Assembly: GCF_036226925.1 (NCBI RefSeq)
Contig: NZ_CP109031.1
Coordinates: 9,176,001-9,240,000 of the forward strand
DNA length: 64,000 nucleotides
From: Streptomyces sp. NBC_00659
Lineage (GTDB): Bacteria > Actinomycetota > Actinomycetes > Streptomycetales > Streptomycetaceae
Direction of reading: 5' to 3'
The notes below the pieces were generated by a model. The model did no database searches and was not told the DNA's origin. It saw nothing but the letters and a program-made list of their open reading frames with translations. Below are positions 14,417 to 19,875 of this stretch, piece by piece. The translations under genes and the position numbers were made by a program. The number at the start of each line of letters is the position of its first letter. Positions within the stretch are counted from its first letter, which is position 1.

Positions 14417-15172
14417 CTATTCGTGGTCCGCACTTGGCCGGGAGGTGTCGCCCGGGGTTGTTCCAGGGCCGGTGTGGAGGACTTCGCGGGCCTGTTCGGC
14501 GGCGCGGGTGATGCTTTCGCTGATGAAGTCGAGGAAGCGGGCGACGTTCTCCAGACGGGCGGCGGCGGGGGTGTCGCGGCCGAGGACGGCGACGCCCTGG
14601 CGGGCGGTCTTGACGAGTTCGTCGTTGGCCCGGGCGCTGGCGATCGTCGCCTGGTAGAAGAGCTCGCCGTCGACGACGTAGCGGTCGCGGCGGCCCTCGT
14701 CGCGTTCCCGGCGCACGAGGCTCTGGCTCTCCAGGAACGTGATGGCCTTGGAGATGGACGCCGGGCTGACCTGGAGGCGCTGGGCGAGCTCGGACGCGGT
14801 GAGGCTGCCCGTGTCCGCAGTGAACAGACAGGTCAGCACCCGGGCCGGGATCTTGGGCAGGCCGGAGCCCATGAGGACGGTGGTGAACGTCTCCTCGTAC
14901 TCGGCCACGGCCTCGGCGTCGCGTCCGTGCGGCTGGGGAACCGACTCCGGACCGAGGGAGGTGGCGGTCCTGCGCCGGTGCGCGCGGCGTTCGGTGGCGC
15001 GGTGGGCCAGATTGGCGCGGTAGGCGGTGGGACCGCCGTTGCGCATCACCTCACGTGTGACCGTCGAGGTGGGACGGCCCAGACTCCGGGCGATCTCGGC
15101 GTAGGGGAGGCTGTCGGCCAGTCCCAGCGCGATCTGCTGGCGTTCCTGCTGGGTGAGTCTGCCTCCCGGCAT
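14417..15172 (-). CDS. HTH transcriptional regulator with MarR-like domain
   Basis: A protein of 251 residues. Residues 1-50 (LTQQERQQIALGLADSLPYAEIARSLGRPTSTVTREV) form an IS30-like helix-turn-helix. Residues 90-200 form a MarR/GbsR-like winged helix (ARVLTCLFTADTGSLTASELAQRLQVSPASISKAITFLE, then SLVRRERDEGRRDRY). In Streptomyces this architecture commonly accompanies DUF4097-ABC exporter genes, as here at 17.4-19.9 kb. The gene starts beside one of two homologous promoter arrays (15221-15385), so it probably controls itself and the exporter. ATG at 15172 is the first Met of the conserved domain. Confidence 0.85.
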   Translation of the reverse strand: MPGGRLTQQERQQIALGLADSLPYAEIARSLGRPTSTVTREVMRNGGPTAYRANLAHRATERRAHRRRTATSLGPESVPQPHGRDAEAVAEYEETFTTVLMGSGLPKIPARVLTCLFTADTGSLTASELAQRLQVSPASISKAITFLESQSLVRRERDEGRRDRYVVDGELFYQATIASARANDELVKTARQGVAVLGRDTPAAARLENVARFLDFISESITRAAEQAREVLHTGPGTTPGDTSRPSADHE

Positions 15173-15220
15173 CGCGGTCTCCTCGGTGATTCCTCGCGGC
15201 GGTCCCTGTACCCCTCACTG

Positions 15221-15385
15221 TAGCGTTCACCCTCCTTCATTGCAACAAATGGAGAGAGGGTTGTTGCGTTAAAGGTGAAACCATTGCAACAATTTCATGC
15301 CCTTTACCTGCGAATATAAGGGAGCTTCGCAATTAATGAGTTGCTGCGTCCGTGAACGCAACGTAGCGTTTCCGATGTAGGAAAG
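15221..15385. promoter_or_regulatory. Operator array A, divergent promoter of HTH regulator and gtrA-like gene
   Basis: Six pentamers of GCAAC or GTTGC occur at 15242, 15263 (inverted), 15286, 15329 (degenerate GCAAT), 15340 (inverted) and 15358. The right half contains TACCTGCGAATAT, a possible -10 region, and the array ends in GTGAACGCAACGTAGCGTTTC-like sequence. The same arrangement recurs at 17211-17376 with nearly identical spacing. The array most likely binds the HTH regulator encoded immediately to the left. Confidence 0.75.
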
Positions 15386-15450
15386 CATGATGGGGAGCGG
15401 CGTCGGGGCGGGCCTCGCGGGTCGGGCGGACGGACGAAGGGGTGGGGATC

Positions 15451-16110
15451 ATGGAAACAGCACCGAGCCGGCGGGGGGCCGCCGCTCCCGGCGCCTTCAC
15501 CGCCTTCGCCCGCTTCGTGCTCTGCGGCGGGGGAGTGGGGCTCGCCTCCAGCTTCGCCGTGGCCGCCCTCGCCGCCTGGATTCCCTGGGGCGTGGCCAAC
15601 GCCCTGATCACCGCGGCCTCCACCCTTCTGGCCACCGAACTGCACGCCCGCTTCACCTTCGGTGCGGGCGGGCGCGCGACCTGGCGCCAGCATGTGCAGT
15701 CGGCCGGGTCCGCCGCGGCCACCTACGCGGTGACCTGTGCGGCGATGCTCGTCCTGCATCAACTGCTGGCGGCGCCCGGCGCGGTGCTCGAGCAGGCCGT
15801 CTACCTGTCCGCCTCCGCGCTCGCCGGTGTCGCACGGTTCGTGGCGCTGCGCCTGGTCGTCTTCGCACGCGGCCACGCACAGGACGCGGCCTCCGCCGGC
15901 TGTGACCTCGCGTCGGGAACGGCCTCGGTTCACCGCGACTCCGCGTCGGGCACGGTCTCCGTCCGCCGTGACGCCGCGCCGGACACGGCCTCCGTCCACC
16001 GCGCCCTCGCGCCGGACGCGGCCGCCGTCCACGCCACCCGCCCCGTACCCGCTCCCGCGGCCCGCGTCACGGCACCGGCGGGTCAGGCGGCGCTCTGTCG
16101 CGCCGCCTGA
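15451..16110 (+). CDS. GtrA-like membrane protein with repeat tail
   Basis: A protein of 219 residues. Residues 15-135 have four hydrophobic helices and the GtrA pattern FARFVLCGGGVGLASSFAVAALAA, then ELHARFTF and RFVALRLVVFA. GtrA proteins are thought to move lipid-linked sugars across the membrane. The C-terminal 75 residues are unusual: four 11-residue repeats (see 15898-16029) then a Pro/Ala-rich end. The ATG at 15451 is preferred over GTG at 15442 because GAAGGGG lies 12-18 bases upstream. Its promoter lies in operator array A, so it is probably part of the same regulon. Confidence 0.75.
   Translation: METAPSRRGAAAPGAFTAFARFVLCGGGVGLASSFAVAALAAWIPWGVANALITAASTLLATELHARFTFGAGGRATWRQHVQSAGSAAATYAVTCAAMLVLHQLLAAPGAVLEQAVYLSASALAGVARFVALRLVVFARGHAQDAASAGCDLASGTASVHRDSASGTVSVRRDAAPDTASVHRALAPDAAAVHATRPVPAPAARVTAPAGQAALCRAA
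15898..16029 (+). repeat. Four tandem 33-bp repeats inside the gtrA-like gene
   Basis: Four imperfect 33-bp units encode the 11-mers GCDLASGTASV, HRDSASGTVSV, RRDAAPDTASV and HRALAPDAAAV. The tail is polar and probably disordered in the cytoplasm. Copy number may vary by slippage. Confidence 0.8.
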
Positions 16111-16122
16111 CCCGCCGGTGCC
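16071..16122. terminator. 22-bp hairpin overlapping the end of the gtrA-like gene
   Basis: A perfect 22-bp inverted repeat (arms 16071-16092 and 16101-16122, 8-base loop) spans the stop codon at 16108-16110. It serves as a two-way terminator against the convergent VOC gene and forms the last codons of the gtrA-like gene. Confidence 0.85.
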
Positions 16123-16144
16123 GTGAGGGCTGCCCGCCGGGGTG

Positions 16145-16927
16145 TCACATCCGCGGGTCGGGCTTCAGCAGGGCGAACTCGGCGCCGAACGGGTCCGCGA
16201 GCCAGGCGATGCGGCCGACGTCCGGGACGTCCGCCGCCGGCATCAGGACGGACCCGCCGTTCGCCGTGGCCGCCGTGGCCGTGGCGTCGGCGTCCTCCGC
16301 GTGGAAGTAGGGCACCCAGCGGGGCCGTTCGCCTTCGCCGCCGCCCATCGGTGCGACCCCGCCGAAGGAGGCGTCCTGCTGGTCGCCGTCCTTGGTGCTC
16401 AGCACCCGGTACGTCATGCCGGGCGCCTGCATCTCCTGGCTGCGCCAGCCGAACAGGCCCTCGTAGAAGGCGATGGCGGCGAGCGGGTCGGGAGCGTGCA
16501 GCTCTGCCCAGAGCAGCGTGTTCGGGGCGGAGGCGATATCCAGTCCGGCGGTCTTGCCGGGCTGCCAGAGGGCGAACTCGGCGCCCTGCGGGTCGGTGGC
16601 CTGTGCCAGATGGCCCTCGCCCATGACGTCCATGGGCTCCATCCGGACGGTCCCGCCGCCGGCCGTGACGGCCGAGACGGTGGCCTGGATGTCATCGGCC
16701 TTGAAGTGGATCATCCAGGCGGACTTCGCGCCCTCCTGGGTGAGCGGTCCGAGCGCGGCGACGGTCTTCCCGTCGAGCTGGAAGAACCCGTACCCGCCCG
16801 CTTCCGGTCCTGCGGAGACGAACTGCCATCCGAGGACGGCGCCGTAGAACGCGGCGGCCGCCTCGGTGTCGGGGCTGCCGAGGTCGAGCCAGTTGGGCGA
16901 TCCGATGCTGAAGTCTGTGCCGAGCAT
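16145..16927 (-). CDS. VOC family protein, two glyoxalase-like domains
   Basis: A protein of 260 residues made of two vicinal-oxygen-chelate modules: residues 8-125 (GSPNWLDLGSPDTEAAAAFYGAVLGW ... DPQGAEFALWQPG) and 135-260 (LLWAELHAPDPLAAIAFYEGLFGW ... DPFGAEFALLKP). The duplicated layout is typical of Streptomyces glyoxalase/bleomycin-resistance-like proteins that bind small ligands or detoxify. A GGAGGA site precedes the ATG at 16927. It is transcribed away from operator array B, with about 280 bases between. Confidence 0.88.
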   Translation of the reverse strand: MLGTDFSIGSPNWLDLGSPDTEAAAAFYGAVLGWQFVSAGPEAGGYGFFQLDGKTVAALGPLTQEGAKSAWMIHFKADDIQATVSAVTAGGGTVRMEPMDVMGEGHLAQATDPQGAEFALWQPGKTAGLDIASAPNTLLWAELHAPDPLAAIAFYEGLFGWRSQEMQAPGMTYRVLSTKDGDQQDASFGGVAPMGGGEGERPRWVPYFHAEDADATATAATANGGSVLMPAADVPDVGRIAWLADPFGAEFALLKPDPRM

Positions 16928-17210
16928 GAGGAGTCCTCCGGGGGCGTCGGTCGAGCGGGCGGGGGCAACGATGCCGACCCGGCCCGCGGTGGGCCACCCG
17001 TAACCACCGGCGGCCTGCGGGCTTCACCCGTACGGAGTAACCCGCGGCCCACTCCGGCGCCGAAAGCGCGACCCGCGCCCGATGGTGCTTCCTGGCCCCG
17101 GCGGCCAGGACGGGCGACACGCTCCACCGGTCGCGGCCGGTGGCCGTGCGGTGCGGCCGGGTGCGAGAACTGATCCATGGGCCCGGATCGTGCCGATACC
17201 CCGCTGGTCA

Positions 17211-17376
17211 TAGCGTTCACCTTCATTCATTGCAACGTCTCCTGTGGGAGGGTGTTGCGTTAAGCGTGGGACCGTTGCAACAAATTTTGGGTATCTACCT
17301 GCGAATATTGGCATCTGACGCAACAAGTATGTTGCCGGATCTGTGAATGCAACGTAGCGTTTCTGTCATCGGAAAG
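17211..17376. promoter_or_regulatory. Operator array B, promoter of DUF4097-ABC exporter operon
   Basis: GCAAC or GTTGC pentamers occur at 17232, 17254 (inverted), 17277, 17320, 17331 (inverted) and 17349. Orientation and spacing match array A (22, 23, 43, 11, 18 bases against 21, 23, 43, 11, 18). TAGCGTTCAC, TGTTGCGTTAA, TTGCAACAA, TACCTGCGAATAT and GCAACGTAGCGTTTC are identical in the two regions. It sits 45 bases before the DUF4097 gene and should control the exporter operon. Confidence 0.75.
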
Positions 17377-17420: not shown

Positions 17421-18089
17421 ATGCAGAAGTTCGACACTCCCGCCCCCGTCTCCGCGATCATCGACATCCCCGCGGGACGCATCCAGTTCATCGCCGCCGA
17501 CCGCGCCGACACCACTGTCGAGGTCCTGCCCGCCGACCGTGCCAAGAGCCGCGACGTGAAGGCGGCCGGACAGGTCCGGATCGACTACGCCGACGGTGTC
17601 CTGCGCGTCGAGGCTCCGGAGGCGAAGAACCGGCTGCTCGGCCCGTCCGGGTCCGTCGAGGTGACCGTGCAGCTTCCGGCCGGCTCCCGCGTCGAGGCGA
17701 AGGCGGCCGCCGCCGAGTTCCGCGGCGTGGGACGGCTCGGCGAGGTCACCTTCGAGGGCGGCCACCGCTCGGTCAAGCTCGACGAGGCCGACAGCCTCCG
17801 CCTGACGGGCCTCGACGCCGACATCACCGTCGGCCGCCTGAACGGACCCGCCGAGATCAGCACCCAGAAGGGCGATCTGAACGTCGTCGAGGCCGCCCGC
17901 GGAACGCTCACGCTGAGCACGCAGATGGGGAACATCACCGTCGGCGCAGCCCCCGGCGTCTCCGCGGTCCTGGACGCCGGCACCACCTTCGGCCGGGTCA
18001 GCAACACGCTCAAGAACGCCGACGCGACTCCCGGCCTGACCATCCACGCGACCACCGCCCACGGCGACATCACCGCCCGCAGCCTCTGA
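17421..18089 (+). CDS. DUF4097 family beta-repeat protein
   Basis: A protein of 222 residues with no signal peptide or membrane helix. It shows the repeating beta-helix rungs of DUF4097 adhesin-like proteins: PAGRIQFIAADRADTTVEVLP, GSVEVTVQLPAGSRVEAKAA, ISTQKGDLNVVEA, LSTQMGNITVGAA and a final THGDITARSL-like end (TAHGDITARSL). The molecular role is unknown; in Streptomyces such genes commonly precede ABC-2 exporters. ACAAGGAGAGCATC gives a good ribosome site before the ATG at 17421. It is the first gene of a three-gene operon controlled from array B. Confidence 0.85.
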   Translation: MQKFDTPAPVSAIIDIPAGRIQFIAADRADTTVEVLPADRAKSRDVKAAGQVRIDYADGVLRVEAPEAKNRLLGPSGSVEVTVQLPAGSRVEAKAAAAEFRGVGRLGEVTFEGGHRSVKLDEADSLRLTGLDADITVGRLNGPAEISTQKGDLNVVEAARGTLTLSTQMGNITVGAAPGVSAVLDAGTTFGRVSNTLKNADATPGLTIHATTAHGDITARSL

Positions 18090-18115
18090 CCGCCGCCTCG
18101 ACGAAGGAGCACTCC

Positions 18116-19102
18116 ATGACCGACCCGGCCATCGCCGCACACGGGCTGCGCAAGTCCTACGGCGACAAGACCGTCCTCGACGGCATCGACCTGACCGTCC
18201 CCGAGGCGACTGTCTTCTCCCTGCTGGGCCCGAACGGCGCCGGCAAGACCACCGCCGTCAAGATCCTCTCCACGCTGATCTCCCCCGGCCCCGGCTCCGG
18301 CCCGATTCGCGTCGGGGGCCACGACCTGGCCACCGAGGCACAGGCCGCACGCGCCGCGATCGGGGTCACCGGCCAGTTCTCCGCCGTCGACGGCCTGATC
18401 ACCGGCGAGGAGAACATGCTCCTCATGGCGGACCTGCACCATCTCTCCCGGTCCGAGGGGCGGCGGGTCGCCGCCGCGCTCCTGGAGCGCTTCGACCTCA
18501 CCGAGGCCGCGAAGAAGCCCGCCTCCACCTACTCCGGCGGCATGAAACGCCGCCTGGACATCGCCATGACCCTGGTCGGCAGCCCCCGCATCATCTTCCT
18601 CGACGAACCGACCACCGGCCTGGACCCCCGCTCCCGCCACAACATGTGGCAGATCATCCGCGAGCTCGTCGCAGGCGGCACCACGGTCTTCCTCACCACC
18701 CAGTACCTGGAGGAGGCCGACGAACTCGCCGACCGCATCGCCGTGCTGAACAACGGCGGGATCGCCGCCGAGGGCACCGCGGAGGAACTCAAGCGGCTCG
18801 TCCCCGGCGGACACGTCCGGCTGCGCTTCACCGACCCGGTCGCCTACCGGTCCGCCGCCGCCTCACTGGGAGACGCATCCCATGACGACGAGGCCCTCGC
18901 CCTGCACCTGCCCAGCGACGGCAGCCAGCGCGAACTGCGCGCCGTCCTCGACCGTCTGGACACGGCCGGCGTCGAGGCCGACGAACTGACCGTGCACACA
19001 CCCGACCTCGACGACGTCTTCTTCGCCCTGACCGGCGGCACCGTACCGAGCCAGCCGAACAAGTCGAACCAGTCCGACCAGCCTGAGGAGGCTGTCCGAT
19101 GA
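18116..19102 (+). CDS. ABC exporter ATPase, DrrA type
   Basis: A protein of 328 residues. It has Walker A LGPNGAGKTT, signature YSGGMKRRLDIAMTL, Walker B IIFLDEPTTGLDPRSR and the DrrA-type LTTQYLEEADELADRI. The C-terminal 100 residues match the DUF4162 tail of daunorubicin-resistance ATPases. With the next gene it forms an ABC-2 exporter for a drug, lipid or antibiotic. The ATG follows the DUF4097 stop by 26 bases; the TGA overlaps the permease start (ATGA). The substrate is unknown. Confidence 0.92.
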   Translation: MTDPAIAAHGLRKSYGDKTVLDGIDLTVPEATVFSLLGPNGAGKTTAVKILSTLISPGPGSGPIRVGGHDLATEAQAARAAIGVTGQFSAVDGLITGEENMLLMADLHHLSRSEGRRVAAALLERFDLTEAAKKPASTYSGGMKRRLDIAMTLVGSPRIIFLDEPTTGLDPRSRHNMWQIIRELVAGGTTVFLTTQYLEEADELADRIAVLNNGGIAAEGTAEELKRLVPGGHVRLRFTDPVAYRSAAASLGDASHDDEALALHLPSDGSQRELRAVLDRLDTAGVEADELTVHTPDLDDVFFALTGGTVPSQPNKSNQSDQPEEAVR

Positions 19103-19875
19103 ACTCCTTCTCCCTCGCCGTGCGCGACTCGTCCACGATGCTGCGCCGCAACCTCCTGCACGCCCGCCGCTACCCCTCGCTCACCCTGAACCTGCTGCTC
19201 ACCCCTGTGATGCTCCTGCTGCTGTTCGTCTACATCTTCGGCGACACCATGAGCGGCGGCGCGGGCCGCTCCGCCTACATCGCCTACATCGTCCCCGGCA
19301 TCCTGCTGATGACCATCGGCTCCACCGTCGTCGGCACCGCCGTATCCGTTTCCACCGACATGAACGAGGGCATCATCGCCCGCTTCCGCACGATGGCCAT
19401 CCACAGAGGCTCCATCCTGTTCGGACATGTCGTCGGCAGCGTGCTGCAGGCGGTCGTCAGCGTCGTCCTGGTCGGCGCCGTCGGCGTCGCCATGGGCTTC
19501 CGCTCGACCGACGCCACCGTCGTGGAATGGCTCGCGGCCTTCGGACTGCTCGCCCTGTTCGCCCTGGCCGTCACCTGGATCGCGGTCGGCATGGGCATGG
19601 GCAGCCCCAACGCCGAAGCGGCCAGCAACAACGCCATGCCGCTGATCCTGCTGCCCCTCATCTCCAGCGCCTTCGTCCCCCTGCACTCCATGCCCGGCTG
19701 GTTCCAGCCGATCGCCCAGTACCAGCCCTTCACCCCCGCCATCGAAACCCTGCGCGGACTCCTCCTGGGCACCGAGATCGGCAACAACGGGTGGATCGCC
19801 CTGGCCTGGTGCCTGGGCCTGAGCGTCCTCGGACACCGTTGGTCGAAGGCCCAGTTCGACCGCGACCCCAAGTAG
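19099..19875 (+). CDS. ABC-2 type permease, DrrB type
   Basis: A protein of 258 residues with six predicted helices. It has the DrrB-like pattern LLRRNLLHARRYPSLTLNLLLTPVMLLLLFVYIFG-type N-terminus (MLRRNLLHARRYPSL), a central DMNEGIIARFRTMAIHRGSILFGHVVG block and PGWFQPIAQYQPFTPAIETLRGLL near the end. ATG overlaps the ATPase stop by four bases, so the two subunits are translationally coupled. It completes the exporter; a hairpin follows. Confidence 0.92.
   Translation: MNSFSLAVRDSSTMLRRNLLHARRYPSLTLNLLLTPVMLLLLFVYIFGDTMSGGAGRSAYIAYIVPGILLMTIGSTVVGTAVSVSTDMNEGIIARFRTMAIHRGSILFGHVVGSVLQAVVSVVLVGAVGVAMGFRSTDATVVEWLAAFGLLALFALAVTWIAVGMGMGSPNAEAASNNAMPLILLPLISSAFVPLHSMPGWFQPIAQYQPFTPAIETLRGLLLGTEIGNNGWIALAWCLGLSVLGHRWSKAQFDRDPK

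Follow-up and report, generated by a model that had tools for sequence, protein, structure and literature searches.

We examined a 64,000-nucleotide window of the Streptomyces sp. NBC_00659 genome and found two homologous arrays of short repeats. We consider it probable that each array is a rigid, promoter-spanning operator of approximately 165 bp that is read by a linked, two-headed regulator, REG, for control of genes in cis and in trans. Array 1 (15221..15385, + strand) lies between REG and a gtrA-like gene, and array 2 (17211..17376, + strand) lies before a set of DUF4097-ABC genes; both are putative operators on the basis of their sites and their match to a sequence model, R1. Most likely, REG represses its own gene and a small regulon through an operator that has a rigid layout and spans the promoters. 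At the sequence level, we observed the arrays, their fixed geometry, their conservation, their co-occurrence with REG, their copies in trans, a residue-base covariation and the decay of a leftward promoter, and the comparative evidence supports a REG-array regulon, short of proof.

The sites of array 1 start at 15242 (GCAAC), 15263 (GTTGC), 15286 (GCAAC), 15329 (GCAAT), 15340 (GTTGC) and 15358 (GCAAC), giving start-to-start spacings of 21, 23, 43, 11 and 18. Those of array 2 start at 17232 (GCAAC), 17254 (GTTGC), 17277 (GCAAC), 17320 (GCAAC), 17331 (GTTGC) and 17349 (GCAAC), with spacings of 22, 23, 43, 11 and 18 and an extra, overlapping GTTGC at 17274. Thus, the spacings and orientations described in the first-pass annotation hold, but its count of six GCAAC/GTTGC sites per array needs correction at site four of array 1, which is GCAAT. 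Array 1 also carries TAGCGTTC at 15221 and TACCTGCGAATAT at 15305-15317, and the sequence bears out the earlier claim that the arrays share both blocks letter for letter. The likeness spans the whole element, including the stretches that begin with TAGCGTTC and ACCTGC and the GGAAA motif, and 123 of 168 aligned columns are identical in a global alignment. The local alignment score of the two arrays is 104, while 1000 dinucleotide shuffles gave a mean of 16.1 (sd 2.3, maximum 28) and 400-bp pieces from the remaining window scored 23 or less against array 1. At least five GCAAC/GTTGC sites per 165 bp were found at 168 of 63,834 overlapping starts, and among those listed (the first five and the last five) all fall at arrays 1 and 2. 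Model R1, made from 56 sequences hand-picked out of 78 cores in 74 sources with the window included, matches arrays 1 and 2 with E-values of 2.3e-29 and 4.3e-30, respectively, both arrays being in its own training set. Exact copies of TACCTGCGAATAT in the genome are limited to the window's two, and 14 places match it with at most two mismatches, as compared with 5 for a reversed control. One of the candidates, a one-mismatch match upstream of a transporter-like gene (L003), was rejected since no array was seen there by eye.

REG (14417..15172, - strand) combines an N-terminal HTH_38 domain of the IS30 type (56.6 bits; Pfam cut-off, 27) with a MarR winged helix (39.3 bits; cut-off, 24.6) and C-terminal helices. 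It falls below the NCBIfam cut-off for an IS30 transposase (13.3 bits against 80) and is therefore not classed as one. On the whole, the N-terminal domain is the best-kept part of REG across subfamilies. Comparison of a REG model with the PDB returned no two-domain chain among the matches listed, and since their coverage is mainly of residues 83-225, the N-terminal fold was hardly probed. Relatives of REG occur in 76 of 72,556 plasmid records at an E-value of 1e-20 and in none of 50,697 phage records at 1e-10. A distant paralogue (G000:C1:5193513, 33%) was set aside, as it matches residues 31-229 only and has no array match. The genes flanking both arrays are, by Pfam, as earlier described, with the gtrA-like product (15451..16110, + strand; start codon chosen by eye in an open reading frame that opens at 15442) barely above the cut-off for GtrA_DPMS_TM (26.7 bits against 26.1). 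It is a putative target; a Glyoxalase/Ble-like gene between the arrays (16145..16927, - strand) is not counted as one.

The first-pass annotation had named orthologous loci without sites as evidence against the regulon. Instead, the strict core pattern is found between REG and DUF4097 in 66 of 80 named relatives, and several of the seven in which that pattern failed (L024, L027, L041, L052, L054, L060 and L085) still have sites. In 71 of the 80, DUF4097 is divergent from REG at a distance of 219-274 bp. Usually, and probably ancestrally, the divergent REG and DUF4097 genes are separated by one array, and the two arrays of the window are a derived split. Across 150 genomes of the genus, 100 have both array and REG, 3 have REG only, none has an array only and 47 have neither; as most arrays lie next to REG, some of this co-occurrence is expected by construction. 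The 47 genomes without a REG match gave no array at an E-value of 0.001 when the top-ranking candidates of each genome were scored; searches over 40 genomes likewise scored best candidates only, so weak arrays may have been missed. More distant REGs (39-50%) keep a profile-detectable array at 13 of 17 loci, the others being L180, L188, L191 and L193, and the divergent gene at distant-REG loci is replaced by a P450, an ABC exporter or a beta-lactamase-like gene. REG is thus the constant neighbour of the array, and the divergent gene varies. The module is uncommon in the phylum, where a sample of 296 genomes contained a REG match in 13 and arrays in 9.

We also found arrays away from REG. At least 134 full arrays, weaker and partial matches and rows beyond the listing not being counted, are present in 95 genomes; 95 of them adjoin REG, with DUF4097 downstream in 85, and 39 do not. 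All 39 unlinked arrays sit in REG-bearing genomes, 28 of them before DUF4097 and 7 of the other 11 before gtrA. Three DUF4097 rows (G004:C1, G114:C297 and G095:C29) are not directly 3' of an array. Streptomyces sp. NBC_00659 itself has a third array, before an orphan DUF4097 gene, which was detected by a genome profile search and missed by an exact-block search. The idea of a regulon is supported in other genomes by REG-unlinked arrays, which stand before stand-alone gtrA or before DUF4097, whether or not the ABC pair follows. A regulator-exporter regulon, as first proposed, stands with respect to the array shared in trans, but its content is wider than the exporter. If this reading is correct, one regulator would serve a multi-target circuit common to several actinobacterial genera, the operator would be searchable in any genome, and uncharacterised DUF4097 and GtrA proteins would be tied to export.

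The geometry of the array is nearly fixed. The distance from site 3 to site 6 is 72 bp in 176 of 181 measured arrays (of 195), and the site 1-2 spacing is 19-22 bp in 147 of 167 arrays and 9-16 bp in the remaining 20; a separate count found spacings of 31-32 in 5 of 187. This survey covered set search ranges, and its filters removed one gtrA array (L201). A clean 10.5-bp helical step in the site 1-2 spacing is suggestive only, because spacings of 12-16 bp occur.

That REG binds the arrays through its IS30-like HTH had been inferred earlier, and a covariation between REG and the sites now lends it support. Among 180 genes, of which 13 lacked a scorable site 1 and 15 a scorable site 6, base 5 of site 1 is a pyrimidine in 155 of 156 scored cases in which REG has Thr35, the first residue of its IS30-type recognition helix, and a purine in 9 of 9 with Leu, Ile or Val at that position. 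By mutual information with this base, residue 35 ranks first of 251, with columns 29, 232 and 146 also high. Leu/Ile/Val35 has two separate origins on the tree, and since 8 of the 9 genes share one clade, the covariation rests on those two origins. Genes with Ala35 or Pro35, which were kept apart, retain C at site 1, and one Thr35 gene has A. At site 6, residue 35 is only eighth in rank, and V35 retains C there. Because residue 35 covaries with base 5, these data point to REG as the array binder, and the pairing suggests a rule, open to test, for how IS30-type HTH domains recognise their sites. A bolder reading, which we put forward tentatively and hold somewhat less likely to be right than wrong, is that the array acts as one nucleoprotein switch, an ordered multimer of MarR-type sensors fused to a transposase-type HTH on six phased half-sites, in which cis and trans promoters would be controlled as a unit and a natural change of specificity through the first residue of the recognition helix would be matched at several sites.

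Promoter-like boxes coincide with part of the array. The inferred REG promoter (15217..15245, - strand) has a -35 box TTGCAA (15245-15240), a 17-nt spacer and a -10 box TACAGT (15222-15217). On the + strand, the inferred gtrA-side promoter (15341..15369) has TTGCTG (15341-15346) and TAGCGT (15364-15369), and the inferred DUF4097-ABC promoter (17332..17360) has TTGCCG (17332-17337) and TAGCGT (17355-17360), again with 17-nt spacers. The leftward, REG-side -10 pattern is present in 163 of 180 family upstream regions, with TTGCAA 17-18 nt away in 125 of the 163, and the rightward pattern is present in 158 of 180, with a 17-nt spacer in 152. Promoter patterns with 17-18 nt spacers thus flank the array both ways, and the putative operator, judged by sequence alone, overlaps both. 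The inferred -35 boxes of the two divergent promoters share bases with sites 1 and 5b, site 6 likewise lies within the inferred -35/-10 overlap, and sites 2-4 lie outside the boxes; the GCAAC/GTTGC pattern may therefore be partly promoter as well as operator. A generic scan for sigma-70 promoters and terminators gave zero matches, so these promoters rest on comparative evidence.

The mechanism that we infer takes in binding, cooperativity, repression rather than activation, a ligand and a transported substrate. The N-terminal IS30-type HTH of REG would read the repeated half-sites YGCAAC(G), while the C-terminal MarR/MmpR5-like part would probably dimerise and sense a ligand. Several REG dimers would bind together along the array and cover the -35 and -10 boxes of the leftward (REG) and rightward (DUF4097-exporter or gtrA) promoters, leading to autoregulation of REG and co-regulation of linked and unlinked targets, the third array included. 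Binding of the ligand, for which an amphipathic toxic compound is the simplest candidate, would free the array and induce the export and envelope proteins. It is possible, though unlikely, that REG is instead an activator whose dimers recruit polymerase at both promoters under modulation by a ligand or by DUF4097. The non-canonical -35 box TTGCCG, the empty generic promoter scan and the retention of upstream sites where the rightward promoter alone remains are consistent with activation, but the sites overlap the -35 and -10 boxes. Such overlap usually fits repression by MarR-type proteins.

We also considered that the arrays simply serve as promoters in both directions, recognised at their motifs by a sigma factor or global regulator, with REG a mere neighbour. 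The canonical spacers and the overlap of sites 1, 5b and 6 with the inferred boxes are what this would predict, but sites 2-4 lie outside those boxes, residue 35 of REG covaries with a site base, and the 47 REG-less genomes yielded no array at the threshold given above. Promoter decay also argues against it and, like the covariation, points to REG as the binder. Of the REG-linked arrays, 146 of 147 retain the last base of the leftward -10 box, as against only 4 of 24 without an adjacent REG; array 2 itself lacks the last T (G at 17207). Nevertheless, arrays without an adjacent REG retain most operator sites despite this decay, a retention that is partly built in because the arrays came from a profile of sites. 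Only 4 independent pairs in the comparison fall on well-supported branches, a number too small for statistical significance. It was drawn from 171 distinct arrays that passed filters excluding those without a TAGC anchor, or without 500 bp upstream if no REG was seen, and these filters dropped the third array of Streptomyces sp. NBC_00659. On balance, we find this explanation improbable. Arrays that have lost the leftward promoter and kept most sites may help to separate promoter from operator bases.

Still less probable is that the likeness of the arrays reflects only a duplicated promoter and gene without shared regulation. Most relatives have one array, the order in the window is derived and arrays travel with DUF4097, as such a duplication would have it, but matching sites recur in the arrays of many species and in those before the unrelated gtrA, while the spacers between them diverge. 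Although the conserved intergenic element is long enough to suggest an RNA leader or attenuator, this is very improbable, as Rfam gave no match up to an E-value of 1, the greater part of the element precedes the inferred rightward start, and its sites, short repeats that face either way at set distances, covary with a helix that belongs to a DNA-binding domain.

A search of the open-licence PMC literature listed no paper on the regulator-array pair, and a subscription account is possible. Compared with Rv0678/MmpR5 (PDB 4nb5), a mycobacterial MarR-type repressor of an efflux operon, REG adds the N-terminal IS30-type HTH and the putative six-site, 165-bp operator, and it adjoins DUF4097-ABC/gtrA genes rather than MmpL. 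SCO3205 and other streptomycete MarR regulators share with REG the winged helix and the regulator-operator logic, but the excerpted text of that account mentions neither an IS30-type HTH nor a long fixed array (PMC3737563).

The set of genes downstream of array 2 begins with a DUF4097/Toastrack-like gene (17421..18089, + strand; assigned by Pfam and predicted fold), whose product scores 22.6 bits, slightly below the Pfam DUF4097 cut-off of 22.9. Its AF2 model (mean pLDDT, 93.5) is almost all beta with a single helix at 43-50, and Foldseek matched it to 4qrk best (E = 2.8e-8) and to 4opw (E = 8.5e-5) with a probability of 1.00 and TM-scores of only about 0.4-0.5. Excerpts of PMC11237479 name both 4QRK and 4OPW as Toastrack folds, and the model predicts the same fold for this protein. 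The excerpts describe Toastrack (DUF4097/DUF2154/DUF2807) genes that adjoin ABC genes and regulators of the GntR or RHH type; unlike the window locus, an HTH_38-MarR regulator and an array go unmentioned in them (PMC11237479). A DrrA-like ABC ATPase (18116..19102, + strand; ABC_tran, 95.7 bits) follows, called DrrA-like only as it scores 303.6 against a cut-off of 312.45 for TIGR01188 drrA, and then an ABC-2 membrane protein, the exporter permease (19099..19875, + strand; ABC2_membrane, 90.6 bits). The KbpA model (NCBIfam NF053614) scored 131.9, short of its cut-off of 250, and a PADLOC defence scan returned general HTH/ATPase matches only, with none to gtrA or DUF4097. By description, the DUF4097-DrrA-DrrB set resembles one in the cluster of the peptide antibiotic lunaemycin, in the excerpted account of which REG and the array go unmentioned (PMC9866976). 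Table 1 there lists Lun25 (permease) and Lun26 (DrrA-family ATPase), a pair labelled drug resistance, and the DUF4097 protein Lun27, labelled unknown; Lun2, likewise a DUF4097 protein, and Lun5, which is a GtrA protein, also belong to the cluster (PMC9866976).

In the window, whose source genome is a single 9.66-Mb contig, the gene for the HTH_38-MarR regulator REG (14417-15172, minus strand) is separated from a gtrA gene (15451-16110, plus strand) by a promoter-spanning putative operator, array 1 (15221-15385). A glyoxalase-like gene (16145-16927, minus strand) lies between gtrA and array 2 (17211-17376), which is followed by genes for a DUF4097 protein, an ABC ATPase and an ABC-2 permease, in that order (17421-19875, plus strand). 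The first-pass annotation had described six GCAAC/GTTGC sites common to both arrays; their orientation and spacings are as it stated, except that the fourth site of array 1 (15329-15333) reads GCAAT. The arrays are identical in 123 of 168 aligned columns, with a local alignment score of 104 versus at most 28 among 1000 shuffles. Where gtrA and the glyoxalase-like gene converge there is a perfect inverted repeat with 27-bp arms 6 nt apart (16067-16126), at which a terminator scan requiring a T run gave no match. The glyoxalase-type protein is related to the AfsK-binding protein KbpA, scoring well under the KbpA model's cut-off.

When the genome was searched for the spaced motif, as had been proposed, a profile made from sequence only returned exactly three arrays (E <=1): the two in the window and a third at 2572448-2572614, lying upstream of an orphan DUF4097 gene that shares 87-88% identity with its counterpart in the window. 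Among 150 genomes of the genus, an array occurs in 100 and REG (E <=1e-30) in 103; every array-bearing genome also has REG, three have REG without an array (G096, G102, G137) and 47 have neither, a co-occurrence for which the Fisher test was computed ignoring relatedness. The matches listed, with weaker and partial ones left out, include 134 full arrays in 95 genomes. REG and DUF4097 stand on either side of 85 of these, REG is adjacent with no DUF4097 downstream in 10, DUF4097 alone is adjacent in 28, and neither is adjacent in 11. Behind seven of these 11 lies gtrA (G024, G108, G103, G110, G013, G016, G123); the others reach contig ends (G018, G076) or precede other genes (G114, G004). Again among the matches listed, every genome with a DUF4097 row of this type (to about E 1e-41), 92 in all, also has an array, and DUF4097 matches in REG-less genomes are weaker (best E 2.2e-39). 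Site 5a, under which 15329-15333 of array 1 is counted, differs from GCAAC in 7 of 9 gtrA arrays (the window, L127, L009, L024, L208, L209, L173, L216, L223) versus 29 of 160 DUF4097 arrays (Fisher p 3e-4, ignoring relatedness). The gtrA arrays may be regulated differently.

Orthologous intergenic regions, whose alignment had also been suggested, keep the sites: DUF4097 is divergent from REG at 219-274 bp in 71 of 80 named REG relatives, and the strict core pattern lies between the two genes in 66 of these 71 pairs. Most of the named records nearest to the window by regulator are from Streptomyces. We collected 78 array cores of 163-166 bp from 74 sources, the window included, among them Streptomyces, Micromonospora, Actinomadura, Microtetraspora, Promicromonospora and Catellatospora; a 56-row alignment has 41 invariant columns. 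The placement of gtrA and the glyoxalase gene between two arrays is common to the window and L009, and L024 has the window's gene order with a second array that matches the profile only partially. At L127, one cluster (L127:5163-13044) has three co-directional arrays, the first with REG and DUF4097, the second with gtrA and the third with DUF4097-ABC, an order that may be close to the one from which the window's arose. Across the phylum sample the module is present in a minority of genomes: REG matches (E <=1e-20) occur in 13 of 296 genomes, eight of them in the window's genus, and arrays in nine. At class level a related query had matches in 59 of 325 genomes, and at family level in 142 of 200. 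REG relatives also occur on 76 plasmid records, including NZ_CP109028.1 (L287), where DUF4097-REG lies near primase, ScbR-type regulator and P450 genes. L139:4149-5404 carries two half-arrays (model positions 2 to ~80-84) adjoining REG and an oppositely oriented partial REG copy, and at L194:6128-8850 the DUF4097 and ABC genes match piecewise, partly in different frames, and look broken.

The constant partner of the array is REG. The profile detects an array at 13 of 17 loci whose regulators are 39-50% identical and finds no match at the other four (L180, L188, L191, L193); at L191 sites are visible by eye only. The other neighbour at distant loci can be a P450 (Pfam-checked at L181, the remainder by eye), a gene that looks beta-lactamase-like by eye (L179, L191) or, directly, the ABC pair (L177, L178). 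Among 39 aligned proteins, the eleven most distant are best conserved in residues 1-66 (identity to REG 0.58-0.71), followed by the MarR domain (0.48-0.65), the C-terminal part (0.27-0.39) and the linker (0.12-0.29). Inspection by eye shows beta-lactamase-like or ABC genes behind the REG-adjacent arrays of L218, L219, L221 and L222, and remnants of DUF4097 at some of these loci.

Among 195 distinct arrays, sites 2 and 3 are 23-24 bp apart and sites 3 and 6 are 72 bp apart, each in 176 of 181 measured, and sites 1 and 2 are 19-22 bp apart in 180 of 187; of 167 family upstream regions, 20 have sites 1 and 2 closer together (9-16), and most of these belong to other subfamilies. REG dimers would most likely bind half-sites through the IS30-type domain and, because the spacing is fixed, would do so cooperatively along the array. 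Bound REG would block the leftward (REG-side) and rightward promoters, and the MarR part would release it once ligand is bound. Since the sites overlap the predicted -35/-10 elements, a repressor role is favoured, not proven.

The leftward -10 pattern is present in 163 of 180 family upstream regions, with TTGCAA 17-18 nt away in 125 of the 163, and the rightward TTGNNN/TAGCKT pattern in 158 of 180, with a 17-nt spacer in 152 of the 158. Of 147 REG-linked arrays, 146 retain the final T of the leftward -10, versus 4 of the 24 unlinked arrays (p 3.7e-21), a difference not built in by selection. Sites 1, 2, 3, 4, 5b and 6 are retained alike in both groups (p >=0.08) and site 5a is retained somewhat less often in the unlinked group (18 of 24 versus 135 of 147, p 0.024), a retention that is partly built in because the profile found the arrays and a TAGC anchor was a filter. 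In the window's genome, array 1 retains the base (A at 15217); it is G in array 2 (17207) and C in the third array, which also has G in place of the T of TA. On the 141-row DUF4097 tree linkage changes 14 times and the base 12 times; supported branches hold four independent pairs, of which on average 3.8 agree and none is opposite, too few for a sign test to reach 0.05. Given that most unlinked arrays lack this base and keep most sites, the leftward promoter apparently degenerates once it is no longer needed, and the whole array appears to serve the rightward gene.

The individual parts are of known kinds; we found no description of the REG-array combination or of the natural specificity change in the literature searched (open-licence PMC listings). 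That change is suggested by residue 35, the first residue of the recognition helix in a structure model (residues 35-44). In 180 distinct family genes, site 1 base 5 is C in 101, T in 54 and A in one of the Thr35 genes (13 unscored), G in four with Leu35, G in three and A in one with Ile35, G in one with Val35, and C in one each with Ala35 and Pro35. Base 5 of site 6 is C in 154 and T in two Thr35 genes (13 unscored), G in four with Leu35, T in three and G in one with Ile35, and C in one with Val35 (Ala35 and Pro35 unscored). Among 251 columns, position 35 ranks first by mutual information for site 1 (0.84), ahead of position 29 (0.79), and eighth for site 6. On the FastTree tree an aliphatic residue 35 arises twice, in a clade of eight and in L231, so the Fisher values for residue 35 and base 5 are weakened by relatedness. 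The sister of L231, L264, retains Thr35 and C. In the four Leu35 genes, CTTGC is also seen, by eye, at site 2.
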